Source of the DNA: Treponema sp.
GTDB lineage: Bacteria > Spirochaetota > Spirochaetia > Treponematales > Breznakiellaceae
NCBI GenBank assembly: GCA_031256635.1
Contig: JAIRQF010000059.1
Span: 1 to 39,215 of the forward strand
Length of the DNA stretch: 39,215 bases
Direction: 5' to 3'
Shown piece by piece: positions 1,746-35,036 of this stretch. How positions within the stretch are numbered: the first letter of the stretch is position 1; each line of letters begins with the position of its first letter. Position numbers and translations under genes: made by a program. Under the pieces are notes generated by a model. That model ran no database searches. It was not told the DNA's origin and saw nothing but the letters and a program-made list of their open reading frames with translations.

Positions 1746-1769
1746 CAAGGCGCATATGTTTGCGCCTTG
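1746..1769 (+). terminator. Hairpin after DUF3597 gene, possible terminator
   Basis: CAAGGCGCA (1746-1754) pairs perfectly with TGCGCCTTG (1761-1769) around the loop TATGTT. Only a short mixed CTTCTATT tract follows, so termination is plausible but not certain. Its 3' end overlaps the -35 box of hflK. Confidence 0.5.
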
Positions 1770-1795
1770 CTTCTATTAAAATAGAATAGTATACT
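1767..1795 (+). promoter_or_regulatory. hflK promoter predicting a leaderless mRNA
   Basis: TTGCTT (1767-1772), 17-base spacer, TATACT (1790-1795), then six bases to the ATG at 1802. There is no Shine-Dalgarno. Transcription would be expected to start at or next to the A of the start codon. Confidence 0.6.
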
Positions 1796-1801
1796 TCACT
1801 C

Positions 1802-2752
1802 ATGAAATTCACCTCACAAAACATGGGCAAGTTAAGCCCGCGACTTGTTTCCTTTATCATAGCGGGAATATTGGTGCTGATTTTTTTGGCTACCAGTGTT
1901 TTTATAGTCGATCAGACTGAACAGGCTGTTATTACCCGATTTGGAAAATTTATCGGTATAAGGGATCCCGGCCTTCACTTTAAGCTGCCCTTTGGTATTG
2001 ACCGCAATTATACGGTCAATGTCAGGACTGTACAAACCGAAGAGTTCGGTTATCGCACAACAAGGGGAGGAAATTTCCCCGCATACTCCAGTCAGTCAAT
2101 TGAATCTGTCATGCTTACAGGCGATTTGAATATTGTCGATGTTGAATGGATTATCCAGTACCGTGTTGTTGATCCAAAGGCATGGGTTTTTAACGTACAG
2201 GAGCGCACCGAAACAATCCGCGATGTGTCCCGTTCCGTTATCAATATGCTTGTCGGCGACCGCGCCATTATGGATATCATGGGCGTTGAACGCAGCGCAA
2301 TCGAAACCGAGTCTTCCATTATCATGAACGATACTTTCAATGACTACGCGCTTGGCATCAATGTTATCGCTGTCAGGCTGCAGAATGTCACCCCTCCGTC
2401 GGGACAGGTGCAGGAAGCTTTTGAGGATGTTAACAGGGCGATTCAGGATCGCGAGCGTCTTATCAATGAGGGGCAGCAGTCATACAACGAGGCGATTCCA
2501 AGGGCGAGAGGCGAAGCCGACAGGATGGTTCAGGAAGCGCAAGGTTACGCGCTTGAACGCGTGAACAGGGCAAACGGCGATGTCGCCCGTTTTATTTCCG
2601 TATTCGCGGAATACAGCCGCGCGCCTGACGTTACAAGGCAGCGTTTGTATTATGAAATGATTGAAGAAGTGTTCATGAACGAGACGGATATGACAATTAT
2701 TGACCGAAACCTTAATAATTTCCTGCCTCTTATGAACGTGGGAGGAAGATAA
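1802..2752 (+). CDS. hflK: HflK, SPFH/band-7 membrane protein
   Basis: HflK is half of the HflKC complex, which in other bacteria cages and modulates the membrane protease FtsH. The protein has a short cytoplasmic start, one membrane anchor at about residues 16-37, then the SPFH domain beginning with DQTEQAVITRFGKF and GLHFKLPF, and a long Glu/Arg/Ala-rich helical region (about 200-275). It lacks the Gly-rich N-terminus of enterobacterial HflK, as is common outside Proteobacteria. The start at 1802 has no Shine-Dalgarno and sits six bases after a -10 box; ATG 1823 is the alternative and also lacks one. The stop codon overlaps the hflC start by one base (TAATG), so the two are translationally coupled. 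No ftsH lies in the window. Confidence 0.92.
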   Translation: MKFTSQNMGKLSPRLVSFIIAGILVLIFLATSVFIVDQTEQAVITRFGKFIGIRDPGLHFKLPFGIDRNYTVNVRTVQTEEFGYRTTRGGNFPAYSSQSIESVMLTGDLNIVDVEWIIQYRVVDPKAWVFNVQERTETIRDVSRSVINMLVGDRAIMDIMGVERSAIETESSIIMNDTFNDYALGINVIAVRLQNVTPPSGQVQEAFEDVNRAIQDRERLINEGQQSYNEAIPRARGEADRMVQEAQGYALERVNRANGDVARFISVFAEYSRAPDVTRQRLYYEMIEEVFMNETDMTIIDRNLNNFLPLMNVGGR

Positions 2753-5224: not shown

Positions 5225-6040
5225 TCACTGGAAACAATTTTTCTTTTCAGCTAACCATTCATTTATCAAACTGCGTGACAGAGAGCCTTCGGCCGGCAGC
5301 TCAGGCAGATTGTCTTTTGTAAACCATGCGGCGTCTTCTATTTCCTCTCCGTCCGGATTAATTGTTCCTGATAAGTACCGCGCTCTAAAGCCAATCATCA
5401 GCGAGTTCGGGAAAGGCCACGGCTGGGAGGCGGCATATTCGATATTTTCTACTTCGATGTTTATCTCTTCTCGGATTTCTCTCGCTGCTGTTTCCTCAAG
5501 CGATTCTCCGGCTTCATTAAAACCTGATATGTGGCTGTAAACACCCTGCTTGAATCTTTTGTTATGCGCAAGCAGGATTCGGTTGTCATTATCTGTGATG
5601 ATTACAATAACAGCCGGACAAATTCTCGGAAACTCCATCCGTCCGCATTTCGGACAAAGACGGTGTTCCCCTCCGGGAACATCGTTGTTTTCCGCGCCGC
5701 AGGATCCGCAAAAGCGCGATTCCTGCCTCCACCCGGAAATGTGGCATGCGCGCATAATTTTTGATAATTTTACGTCTTCTTTCCCGGCTGCGCTGAACAT
5801 GGAAAGAAGATGGCGAACGGGAATTCGTTTCCAGTTTACAGGCAAAACAGTTTCCGGGGGAATATATACTCCGGTTATTATGGAAGGGGGAGAGCCGTCA
5901 ACCGCGGGAACTTCAAAAATTTGCGTATCTTTAAATTCTTTGGATAATTCAAGCGGCAATTCTTCGGTTATCTGTGAATCAGAAGTATTTTGCGGAACAA
6001 GTAAACCATCACTCTGAAAGAAAAACGCCTTTTTTTCCAT
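5225..6040 (-). CDS. nudC: NudC-type NAD+ diphosphatase / RNA decapping Nudix hydrolase
   Basis: NudC-family enzymes hydrolyse NAD(H) to NMN and AMP and remove NAD caps from RNA. The 271-residue protein has the full layout: an N-terminal domain, a four-Cys zinc ribbon (C111, C114, C129, C132), and a Nudix domain with the box starting at G163 (GFNEAGESLEETAAREIREE). The NudC-specific SQPWPFPNS motif is at 195-203. Length and order are typical. The gene ends 20 bases from the convergent kinase-like gene and diverges from the gene at 6139. The ATG at 6040 has no Shine-Dalgarno but lies six bases after TATGAT, with TTGATA 17 bases further up, so a leaderless mRNA is predicted. Confidence 0.93.
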   Translation of the reverse strand: MEKKAFFFQSDGLLVPQNTSDSQITEELPLELSKEFKDTQIFEVPAVDGSPPSIITGVYIPPETVLPVNWKRIPVRHLLSMFSAAGKEDVKLSKIMRACHISGWRQESRFCGSCGAENNDVPGGEHRLCPKCGRMEFPRICPAVIVIITDNDNRILLAHNKRFKQGVYSHISGFNEAGESLEETAAREIREEINIEVENIEYAASQPWPFPNSLMIGFRARYLSGTINPDGEEIEDAAWFTKDNLPELPAEGSLSRSLINEWLAEKKNCFQ

Positions 6041-6046
6041 AATTTT

Positions 6047-6075
6047 ATCATAATTTGTTTTTATTTGTTTATCAA
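6047..6075 (-). promoter_or_regulatory. nudC promoter predicting a leaderless mRNA
   Basis: On the minus strand, TTGATA (6070-6075), 17-base spacer, TATGAT (6047-6052), then AAAATT and the ATG at 6040. It shares the divergent intergenic region with a TATAAT (6093-6098) that probably serves the plus-strand gene. Confidence 0.65.
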
Positions 6076-13587: not shown

Positions 13588-14301
13588 TTACTTATTTTCT
13601 GTTTTCGCGGCTTTAATGATTATATTCCTGAAGTATTTACCTTCATTTATGGACATGCCCGCGCGCGAAATGACATCACGCAGAAAGCGTGTTTGCTCTT
13701 CCCTGTTGGGATATTTATAGAAACCAATGTCCGCCAAAGTATCTGTAATTGAGCTGACAAGAGCGGATATTTCTTCTTGATTCATGGCTGTCCATTCACC
13801 TTTTATTGGGAGCTGCTTTTCCATGGCTAGAAATAATTCATAAGCATAAATCTGTACCGCATGGGATAGATTCAGTGAAGGGTGATTCTCACAAACAGGG
13901 ATATGAGAGGCGATATTACACATTTCCAGCTCCGCCTCTTTTAGTCCTGTTCTTTCATTGCCAAAAATAATCGCAGCAGGACCAGGACGTTCCGCAAGCC
14001 ATGCTGCAAGCGCGCGCGGAGTCATTGAAGCGCTTTTCCTGTGATGTCCGCGCCTGCGGGTAGTGCCTGCTATAATTGCGCAGTCTGCAGTTGATGCCGC
14101 AAGATCATCATATATTCGTGCGTTTTCCCAGATATCCCATGAATTTACCGCTCTTGTATATATTTCTTCTGGAACGAGAGGCTGGGGAGCGGCAAGCCGA
14201 AGTTCGGAAAGGCGCATATTTTTCATTGCGCGGCAGACCGCTCCCACATTACCTGATTGCGAAACCCCGCATAAAACAATCCTTATATCCTTTAAAAACA
14301 T
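13588..14301 (-). CDS. trmJ: TrmJ-type tRNA 2'-O-methyltransferase (SPOUT)
   Basis: TrmJ methylates the ribose of tRNA position 32 in the anticodon loop using S-adenosylmethionine. The 237-residue sequence shows the SPOUT/SpoU signatures in order: SGNVGAVCRAMKNM (N-terminal motif 1), FGNERTGLKEAEL (motif 2) and HPSLNLSHAVQIYAYE (motif 3), plus the C-terminal helical extension of TrmJ. Assignment to TrmJ rather than another SpoU member rests on overall layout. The ATG at 14301 follows a perfect TATAAT by five bases with no Shine-Dalgarno, so a leaderless mRNA is predicted. It could be read through into the downstream UROD-like gene 70 bases away. Confidence 0.88.
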   Translation of the reverse strand: MFLKDIRIVLCGVSQSGNVGAVCRAMKNMRLSELRLAAPQPLVPEEIYTRAVNSWDIWENARIYDDLAASTADCAIIAGTTRRRGHHRKSASMTPRALAAWLAERPGPAAIIFGNERTGLKEAELEMCNIASHIPVCENHPSLNLSHAVQIYAYELFLAMEKQLPIKGEWTAMNQEEISALVSSITDTLADIGFYKYPNREEQTRFLRDVISRAGMSINEGKYFRNIIIKAAKTENK

Positions 14302-14306
14302 TAAAA

Positions 14307-14335
14307 ATTATAACATTCAGTTTCCTGAAATGTAA
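14307..14335 (-). promoter_or_regulatory. trmJ promoter predicting a leaderless mRNA
   Basis: Minus strand: TTACAT (14330-14335), 17-base spacer, TATAAT (14307-14312), then five bases to the ATG at 14301. Confidence 0.65.
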
Positions 14336-23706: not shown

Positions 23707-23735
23707 TTGACAGGTTATTTAATTAATTCTATTCT
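23707..23735 (+). promoter_or_regulatory. uma2 promoter predicting a leaderless mRNA
   Basis: TTGACA (23707-23712), 17-base spacer, TATTCT (23730-23735), six bases (TTAAAA), then ATG at 23742. No Shine-Dalgarno. The -35 box is consensus; this is the strongest example of the class. Confidence 0.75.
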
Positions 23736-23741
23736 TTAAAA

Positions 23742-24350
23742 ATGGCGGATACAATAGGCAATTTAGCTCTTGATAAATATTATACATATGCTGATTACAA
23801 GGGCTGGAAACTTGCGGAAGGCGAACGTTATGAGCTAATCTACGGTAAAGCGTACTGTATATCCAAACCTGACGCTTTTGGCATGTCCGCACCGAGCGCG
23901 TATCATCAGCTAATCCTCGGTGAATTACATAGGCAGATCGCTACTTACCTTATAGGCAGACCTTGTAAAGTTTTCCCCGCTCCGTATGATGTCCGGCTAT
24001 TTTATGAAGAAGATGAGAACGACGGTACAGTTGTTCAGCCGGACATTACCATAATCTGCGATCCTAAAAAACGCGGACCTGAAGGCGGAAGAGGCGCACC
24101 GGATTTTATCGCGGAAATTCTTTCACCTTCCAATACAGCTATCGAAATGGAAAGAAAATTCCAGCTTTACCGCGAAGCGGGAGTCCGCGAATATTGGGTG
24201 ATAAATCCTGAACATAAAGCGCTAAGTGTTTATAATTTTAAAGACGGCGCTATTTTCCCTTCAACTTACCGCTCAGCAGATACCGCTAAAATCAGTATTT
24301 TCCCAGATCTTGAGATAAAACTTGAATCTGTGTTTGCGGAAAGCGATTAA
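23742..24350 (+). CDS. Uma2 family (DUF820) PD-(D/E)XK-fold protein
   Basis: A 202-residue protein of the Uma2/DUF820 family, which has a restriction-endonuclease-like fold; functions are mostly unproven, and copies are often mobile or multicopy. The core signature is VVQPDITIICD (Asp101) and PDFIAEILSPSN (Asp111, Glu115), followed by KFQLYREAGVREYWVINPE. The N-terminal GERYELIYGKAYCIS is the usual first strand pair. All catalytic-type acids are present. It starts six bases after a -10 box with no Shine-Dalgarno. It is alone between the solute-binding protein and GH130. Confidence 0.88.
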   Translation: MADTIGNLALDKYYTYADYKGWKLAEGERYELIYGKAYCISKPDAFGMSAPSAYHQLILGELHRQIATYLIGRPCKVFPAPYDVRLFYEEDENDGTVVQPDITIICDPKKRGPEGGRGAPDFIAEILSPSNTAIEMERKFQLYREAGVREYWVINPEHKALSVYNFKDGAIFPSTYRSADTAKISIFPDLEIKLESVFAESD

Positions 24351-24360
24351 TACCGGCTGG

Positions 24361-24468
24361 TTAAGCGTTCATTTCCTGGCTTCACGCAGCCTGCGCGATA
24401 TTACTGAAACTGTCGTAATGTCAAGAGACACACGTTATCTGATCATTTTCTGTTATTTATCCCGTTAA
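24361..24468 (+). pseudogene. Possible gene remnant after uma2
   Basis: In the frame starting TTA at 24361 the sequence reads LSVHFLASRSLRDITETV and on through RDTRYLIIFCYL to a stop at 24466-24468. There is no start codon near the front and no ribosome site, so if real it is the end of a decayed gene. I cannot name a family and it may be chance. Confidence 0.2.
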
Positions 24469-24476
24469 TTTGTTAA

Positions 24477-24505
24477 TTGCCGGGATTATTTTTTAATGTT
24501 ATACT
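24477..24505 (+). promoter_or_regulatory. GH130 gene promoter predicting a leaderless mRNA
   Basis: TTGCCG (24477-24482), 17-base spacer, TATACT (24500-24505), then five bases to the ATG at 24511. Confidence 0.6.
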
Positions 24506-24510
24506 TAATC

Positions 24511-25518
24511 ATGAGCAAATATATTATTAACGGCAGCAGTCTGCCGGATATTCCGTGGGAAGACAGACCGTCTTCAAGCGATCTCGAAAAGGATTTAATG
24601 TGGCGCTATTCGAAGAATCCCATTATTCCAAGGGATTTGACTTTACGTTCAAACAGTATCTTTAACAGCGCGGTTGTTCCGTTTAAGGGACAGGAAGCCG
24701 GATTCAGGTACGCCGGTGTTTTCCGCTGCGATGACACAGCCCGCCATATGGACATTCACGCGGGAAAAAGCAAGGACGGCATTAACTGGGTTATTGAGGA
24801 TGAACCCATAAAGTTTATAAAGACCGACCCTGAACTTCCCGATTCAGATTATAAATATGATCCACGCGTTATTTTTATTGAAGACCGGTATTATATTATT
24901 TGGTGTAATGGTTACTGCGGGCCCTGTCTTGGCATGGCTTACACTTATGATTTTGAAAAATTTTATCAGATGGAAAATCCGATGATGCCGTATAACCGTA
25001 ACGGCGCCCTGTTCCCGCGCAAGATTGGCAAAAACTACGCGATGTACAGCCGCCCAAGCGATTCGGGGCATACTCCGTTCGGCGACATCTGGTATTCAGA
25101 AAGCCCGGACTTTATTTACTGGGGAAAGCACCGCCATGTAATGTCGCCTAACGGAGGCTGGCAAAGCACAAAAGTGGGAGCGGGTCCCTGCCCCATTGAA
25201 ACAACAGAAGGCTGGCTTGTTTTTTATCATGGGGTGCTGACAAGCTGCAACGGCTTTGTTTACGCTTTCAGCGCGGCGTTAATGGACATTGACAAACCAT
25301 GGAAAGTAATCGCGCGTCCGCGTCCTTACATTATTAACCCGCGTGAAATTTACGAGCTTGCAGGCGATGTTCCCAATGTTACTTTCCCTGTCGCTTCCCT
25401 TGTAGACAAAGACACAGGCAAAGTCGCGATTTATTACGGCTGCGCTGATACGGTCACAGGTCTTGTCTTCGGCAAGATCGATGAAATAATTGACTGGGTA
25501 AAGAAAAATAAGATGTGA
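24511..25518 (+). CDS. Glycoside hydrolase/phosphorylase family 130 (mannoside-active)
   Basis: GH130 enzymes phosphorolyse or hydrolyse beta-mannosides; which of the two cannot be decided from sequence alone. The 335-residue protein has the five-bladed propeller pattern: [18 protein letters not shown] (Asp117, candidate catalytic Asp), [59 protein letters not shown] and [12 protein letters not shown] near the end. No signal peptide, so it acts on imported oligosaccharides, fitting the nearby sugar-binding protein and GH3. The start at 24511 (not the frame's first ATG at 24496) is set by the -10 box five bases before it. No Shine-Dalgarno. Confidence 0.88.
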
Positions 25519-33937: not shown

Positions 33938-35002
33938 TTATTCTATATTCCAGTCTACCAGCAAATTCCTGCAGAACTCCATTGGTTCTACTTCGCGGTT
34001 TAAAAGCCTGCAAAGGCCCAAAGATACAGGCATCCTGAGTTTATGTTTTTCGGAAAGAACCTTGATATATTTTGCCGCGGCGACGCCTTCGGGAAGATAC
34101 CCGATTTCTCCGATTCGGGACAGGATATCATCAATATCCTTAAAGGACTTTAAAATATTTTTCTCGATAATTTCCCTTCCGAAGCGGCGGTTTCTCCCGT
34201 GTATTGAACGGCATGTGACGTCCAGATCGCCGATTCCGGAAATTGATGTGAATGTTTCCGGATGGGTTGCGCCTAACGCCATGCCGAGAGTCTGTATTTC
34301 ATTCAATCCCGCCGCAAGCAATAGGGATTCTGTTCCGTCTCCGAACATTTCCGCTTTCCCGGATGTTTTCAGCGCGTCAAGCATTCCGAACGCGATTGCG
34401 ATAACGTTTTTTGCCGCCGCGGCTACCTGCACTCCACGGACATCCAGTGACGAATAAACCATAAGCCGTGGATTTTTTATCAGGTCCCTGAAGCGGATGG
34501 AATTTTTCGCGTTTTCGCTTGCGGCTATCAGTCCTGTTAATTTTCCGCGGGATACTTCTTCCGCGTGGCTGGGGCCTGAAATATAAACAAGAGACTGGCG
34601 GAAAAATCCTGGAAGGTAATCTTCCATCGTTTCCAAAATTAAACGCGGGCCGTGTTCTGTGGGCAGAAAACCTTTCGTTATTACCGCGATAATTGTTTTT
34701 CCTTCCCTGACAGAATTAACCATAATGGATTTTTTTAAGGTATCCAAAAGGAATAACGAAGGGACGGCGTAAATTAAAAATTGCTTTCCTTCTGCGGCTT
34801 CCTCAATATTTGTAGTCGCTTTTATTGACTGCGGAAGCATTACATCAGGCAGGTATCTTGTGTTTTGTTTGTTATTGTTAATGTCATCTTTTACTTTTTC
34901 TTCAAAGCTCCAGATAACAACATCCTTATCCCTTTCAGCGATTACCTTAGCTATCGCTGTTCCCCATGCGCCGGCGCCCAGTACCGCTATTTTATTATCC
35001 AT
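33938..35002 (-). CDS. gpsA: NAD(P)+ glycerol-3-phosphate dehydrogenase
   Basis: GpsA makes sn-glycerol-3-phosphate from dihydroxyacetone phosphate for phospholipid synthesis. The 354-residue protein opens with the Rossmann motif IAVLGAGAWGTAIAKVIAE and carries GPSHAEEVSRGKLT, the catalytic region VAAAAKNVIAIAFGML, and GDLDVTCRSIHGRNRRFG with its substrate-binding Arg and Asn. All family landmarks are present. The ATG at 35002 has no Shine-Dalgarno and follows a -10 box by five bases, predicting a leaderless message that also carries ffh. Confidence 0.95.
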   Translation of the reverse strand: MDNKIAVLGAGAWGTAIAKVIAERDKDVVIWSFEEKVKDDINNNKQNTRYLPDVMLPQSIKATTNIEEAAEGKQFLIYAVPSLFLLDTLKKSIMVNSVREGKTIIAVITKGFLPTEHGPRLILETMEDYLPGFFRQSLVYISGPSHAEEVSRGKLTGLIAASENAKNSIRFRDLIKNPRLMVYSSLDVRGVQVAAAAKNVIAIAFGMLDALKTSGKAEMFGDGTESLLLAAGLNEIQTLGMALGATHPETFTSISGIGDLDVTCRSIHGRNRRFGREIIEKNILKSFKDIDDILSRIGEIGYLPEGVAAAKYIKVLSEKHKLRMPVSLGLCRLLNREVEPMEFCRNLLVDWNIE

Positions 35003-35007
35003 GTGTT

Positions 35008-35036
35008 ATTATGGCTTTTTTTTTAATCAGTTTCAA
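35008..35036 (-). promoter_or_regulatory. gpsA promoter predicting a leaderless mRNA
   Basis: Minus strand: TTGAAA (35031-35036), 17-base spacer, CATAAT (35008-35013), then five bases to the ATG at 35002. Confidence 0.65.

Follow-up and report, generated by a model that had tools for sequence, protein, structure and literature searches.

A uma2 gene in a Treponema sp. MAG starts directly behind a promoter-like sequence. An initial annotation of the 39,215-nt stretch that carries it (the window, contig C62 of the MAG) counted it among six genes without a Shine-Dalgarno (SD) sequence, each with a -35/-10 pair at exactly 17-bp spacing ending 5 to 6 nt before the ATG, and read them as leaderless. 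Are such promoters a genuine class in this organism, and what kind of mRNA would they make?

Predicted start-adjacent promoters in the window and across the genome

The source MAG comprises 2.48 Mb in 189 contigs, is 88.8% complete and has a G+C content of 42%; the 16S sequence, from which the anti-SD would be taken, was absent from it. Relatives of the window's GH130 gene were mostly from Treponema MAGs, and isolate names suggest that these treponemes originated in termite guts. No RNA family or tRNA was found within the window, and no plasmid match was found for the uma2-GH130 region.

Recomputed coordinates placed the -10 boxes and ATGs of all six genes where the initial annotation had put them, 5 to 6 nt apart (Table 1), and Pfam domains identified the products as Band 7/SPFH, Zn-ribbon NUDIX, SpoU methylase, Uma2, GH130 and GpsA proteins. 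The exact 17-bp pairing held up less evenly: at this spacing nudC, uma2 and gpsA had a good -35 and GH130 a fair one, that of hflK was weak, and trmJ had essentially none. The claimed pairing lacks support at trmJ, where orthologues conserve the -10 but not the -35.

Table 1. Predicted promoters and the hairpin near GH130, in window coordinates (matches to each consensus hexamer in brackets)
Feature	Position	Strand	-35	-10	Distance from -10 to ATG	Other
hflK (SPFH/Band 7) promoter	1767..1804	+	TTGCTT 1767-1772 (3/6)	TATACT 1790-1795 (5/6)	6 nt (ATG 1802)	
nudC-like (Zn-ribbon NUDIX) promoter	6038..6075	-	TTGATA 6070-6075 (5/6)	TATGAT 6047-6052 (5/6)	6 nt (ATG 6040)	
trmJ-like (SpoU methylase) promoter	14299..14335	-	TTACAT 14330-14335 (2/6), as claimed initially	TATAAT 14307-14312 (6/6)	5 nt (ATG 14301)	
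uma2 promoter	23707..23744	+	TTGACA 23707-23712 (6/6)	TATTCT 23730-23735 (4/6)	6 nt (ATG 23742)	
Terminator-like hairpin and T-run	24459..24494	+				Hairpin 24459-24486; fold -10.5 kcal/mol, z -3.9
GH130 candidate promoter	24477..24513	+	TTGCCG 24477-24482 (4/6)	TATACT 24500-24505 (5/6)	5 nt (ATG 24511)	
gpsA (glycerol-3-phosphate dehydrogenase) promoter	35000..35036	-	TTGAAA 35031-35036 (5/6)	CATAAT 35008-35013 (5/6)	5 nt (ATG 35002)	

Genome-wide counts came from 713 kb of the source MAG (~29%), with gene starts called by our own coding-potential caller, which is blind to SD and promoter signals. A strict promoter had at least 5/6 matches in the -10, at least 4/6 in the -35 and a spacer of 16 to 18 bp, and distance was measured from the end of the -10 to the called start. 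The comparison genomes were a member of the same genus (G020), a member of another family of the same order (G025, a single 2.78-Mb contig) and Escherichia coli K-12.

Strict promoters stood 5 to 6 nt before the start of 19 of the 515 genes in the source MAG (10 at 5 nt and 9 at 6 nt, with 0 to 7 at other distances), compared with a mean of 2.6 and a maximum of 8 in 200 dinucleotide shuffles. Internal in-frame ATGs, used as a control, had one at this distance in 3 of 4,196 cases, and the identical method returned 0/227 for E. coli K-12. With the window excluded, 15/487 genes qualified, whereas the frequency at other distances predicted 3.2 (p ~2e-6). The initial annotation had staked its reading on a genome-wide excess at 5 to 6 nt; a sharp excess was found there in the source MAG and in the congener (10/278 versus 0.8 expected), and in G025 it lay at 6 to 9 nt (26/301 versus 2.3 expected). 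Less background, the strict counts amount to ~3% of genes in the source MAG and ~8% in G025. The G025 peak was about twice as large as that of the source MAG, and its shifted position may reflect leaders of 1 to 3 nt or a different start-site rule.

When no spacing was preset, a -35 at exactly 17 bp accompanied 15 of the 37 -10 boxes at 5 to 6 nt in the source MAG and 22 of the 42 at the corresponding distances in G025, compared with 6/141 and 1/69 of the -10 boxes at other short distances. Because this accumulation occurs only for start-adjacent -10 boxes, they seem to be genuine promoters positioned directly before the ATG. An SD was absent from all strict cases at 5 to 6 nt (19/19 in the source MAG, 10/10 in G020 and 9/9 in G025), which is partly forced by geometry since the -10 box fills the SD slot; for the same reason we rejected SD absence as independent evidence. 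These results demonstrate that the promoter-abutting pattern is not chance and that the class is real.

Start codons of the strict source-MAG cases were 17 ATG, 2 GTG and no TTG; across the genome, start-codon bias was too weak to serve as evidence. Further members in this MAG included LepA, GMP synthase, an RNA methyltransferase and a CdaA-like diadenylate cyclase, a diversity that points to general housekeeping functions and not to a single pathway. Divergent transcription was commoner among candidate genes (10/18 versus 124/455, p = 0.014). Among 137 other genes in the GH130 neighborhoods of 12 relatives (L001-L012), no case at 5 to 6 nt was found, these being largely the same syntenic genes; we set these loci aside as a replicate because they represent one syntenic region, and they count neither as support nor as refutation.

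Conserved and switching arrangements among orthologues

Orthologue sets were drawn from ~30 congeners, with species treated as non-independent observations. At gpsA, 25 of 30 congeners had TTGAG-17-CATAAT-5/6-ATG even though the spacers diverge; by mode, 23 were leaderless-type, 2 more showed an additional weak match to an SD, and a single one had an SD. Outside the genus, none of 27 gpsA orthologues was promoter-abutted and 20 had an SD, so the leaderless state most simply arose within the genus and is derived. The trmJ -10 lay 5 to 6 nt before the ATG in 22 of 29 species, with no SD-only cases, and under a looser criterion the orthologues outside the genus divided into 8 leaderless-type, 9 with an SD and 10 with neither.

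At hflK, nudC and uma2 there were two states, a promoter 5 to 8 nt from the start without an SD, or one typically 16 to 25 nt away with an SD. In 13 species hflK had TATACT (once TATATT) exactly 6 nt before the ATG with a 17-bp spacer, and 2 more species had the box at 8 nt; the other ~15 had a GGAGG-type SD and a promoter 16 to 36 nt away. The hflK distances are thus bimodal without overlap, and the gene tree requires 2 to 3 changes of state. For nudC, 5 species were leaderless-type and most others were SD-led, mainly with TTG starts; ATG was the start in 5/5 leaderless-type and 3/17 SD-led cases (Fisher p = 0.002), and leaderless-type orthologues as a whole all started with ATG. The uma2 homologues split into 12 leaderless-type and 11 SD-led.

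Two side observations concern these sets. Three SD-led nudC orthologues (L163, L169 and L178) apparently kept the TTGAAT-AACAA promoter core, with a short SD leader before the start, which is TTG in two of the three. Single genomes carried as many as 7 uma2 copies (L220-L249), and initiation mode differed between copies of one genome.

A change of mode within the genus would come about if the promoter were kept while a short leader (~11 to 18 nt, just enough for an SD) appeared or disappeared between it and the start codon. For the broader proposal we see the case as evenly balanced: that a gene toggles a fixed promoter between 5 to 8 nt without an SD and typically 16 to 25 nt with a minimal SD leader as that leader comes and goes, together with a change of start codon, the leaderless state being recent and selectable, not an ancient relic, and gpsA having acquired it in a single event at the root of the genus.

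Probable leaderless mRNA and its alternatives

Housekeeping promoters that give rise to leaderless mRNA are very probably the best explanation of this class, with the mRNA 5' end and the translation mode predicted from sequence comparison. The elements would be ordinary sigma-70 type promoters, positioned so that transcription starts at, or 1 to 2 nt from, the A of the ATG; the resulting mRNA would be leaderless, and its translation would have to begin at the 5'-terminal AUG with no SD contact. Known RNA polymerases start 6 to 9 nt after the -10, and leaderless mRNAs are known to be translated by 70S ribosomes or through 30S-IF2-fMet-tRNA. Leaderless initiation would then serve a few per cent of genes, mostly those with their own promoter, and operon-internal genes would use an SD. 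The initial interpretation of a leaderless class and two initiation modes is supported by the genome-wide excess, by the -35 pairing and by an orthologue spacing that is either kept or exchanged for an SD leader.

The alternative that survives best, though we consider it unlikely, is that the promoters are real and the mRNAs nevertheless have leaders, either because transcription begins a few nucleotides further in or because the true start is a downstream ATG and the first one is mis-annotated. In its favor, polymerase can start 6 to 9 nt after the -10, another in-frame ATG of hflK, at 1823, was picked by a cruder gene caller, and GH130 has an in-frame ATG upstream, at 24496. Conservation of the residues that follow the claimed ATG (MKFT at hflK, MFL at trmJ) argues against such a shift, as do the SD-led hflK orthologues L136 and L145, in which the SD precedes the same codon (GGAGG, then GTG AAA TTC); the later hflK ATG at 1823 has no SD in front of it.

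Still less credible is that another initiation element is at work, in which case longer transcripts made from promoters farther upstream would be translated by A/T-rich, non-SD initiation and the near -10 would be secondary. Non-SD genes with leaders are common in bacteria, and at gpsA a same-strand neighbor lies 72 nt upstream, making read-through possible; against this, the -10/ATG spacing is exact over ~30 species, and the hflK promoter lies farther away whenever an SD appears. Least probable of all is that AT-rich upstream DNA simply yields TATAAT-like hexamers at any distance, since for all that shuffling this 42% G+C genome gives 17.9 -10-only matches at 5 to 6 nt against the 37 seen, the excess with a -35 at 17 bp is distance-specific and conserved among species with diverged spacers, which refutes chance for the class.

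Single genes could still be chance, GH130 among them, and it is the weakest of the six. Its orthologues were mostly SD-led, and its -35 sits in the 3' arm of the hairpin listed in Table 1, which the consensus scan did not flag. Orthologues L036 and L044 carry the same TTGCCGGGA-T-run text as the window, followed by a purine-rich, SD-like leader.

Relation to described leaderless systems

Leaderless mRNA is an already known kind of transcript, to which the present analysis adds a case from treponemes together with comparative evidence of switching. In a statistical whole-genome survey that does not name treponemes in its main text, leaderless ("TA-led") genes were reported in 6 of 18 Spirochaetes genomes, at a mean of 3.9% (1.8 to 6.9%) of genes (Zheng et al. 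2011, PMC3160421). As in our genes, these lack an SD, carry a TANNNT box ~12 bp ahead of the start and make up a few per cent of genes, and the ~3% of the source MAG agrees with the Spirochaetes mean. Specifically, the treponeme genes showed an excess of -10-like boxes ~10 to 12 bp ahead of the start, lacked an SD and had AUG (or GUG) starts; as for promoter sequence, these predicted promoters had a -35 at 17 bp, conserved at gpsA and hflK but not at trmJ. The survey argues that leaderless genes are ancestral, a view that gpsA, judged by its orthologues, does not fit, since it appears to be a gain confined to one genus.

In Leptospira interrogans, of the same phylum but another spirochete order, dRNA-seq revealed ~440 mRNAs with a 5' UTR of <10 nt, half of them <2 nt (PMC5243855), so that leaderless mRNAs were measured there and are inferred here; motifs besides sigma-54 were not identified in that study. 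In Deinococcus, a -10 box a few base pairs before the ORF drives leaderless mRNA (PMC12340547); there the mode covers about one-third of genes and the -35 is an enhancing extra, whereas here it covers a few per cent and usually includes a -35 at 17 bp. The initial annotation knew of no general description for treponemes. This stands insofar as we found no treponeme-specific one; for the Spirochaetes, leaderless genes have been described generally (PMC3160421, PMC5243855). Likewise, no start-site map for a treponeme turned up in our literature searches, although one may exist.

Beyond Leptospira, where leaderless expression has been measured, these comparisons would extend it to termite-gut treponemes and, with a stronger signal, to a genome from another family of the order. 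Clean natural pairs for studying how, why and in which direction initiation mode changes are available in the orthologues of hflK, nudC and gpsA, and gene finders that choose starts by SD would misplace the start of a few per cent of these genes.

A separate observation concerns the composition of the source MAG. Its second contig with such genes (G000:C157) carries GH130 (86%) and gpsA (82%) as neighbors, representing either a duplication or a stray sister-species contig in the bin.
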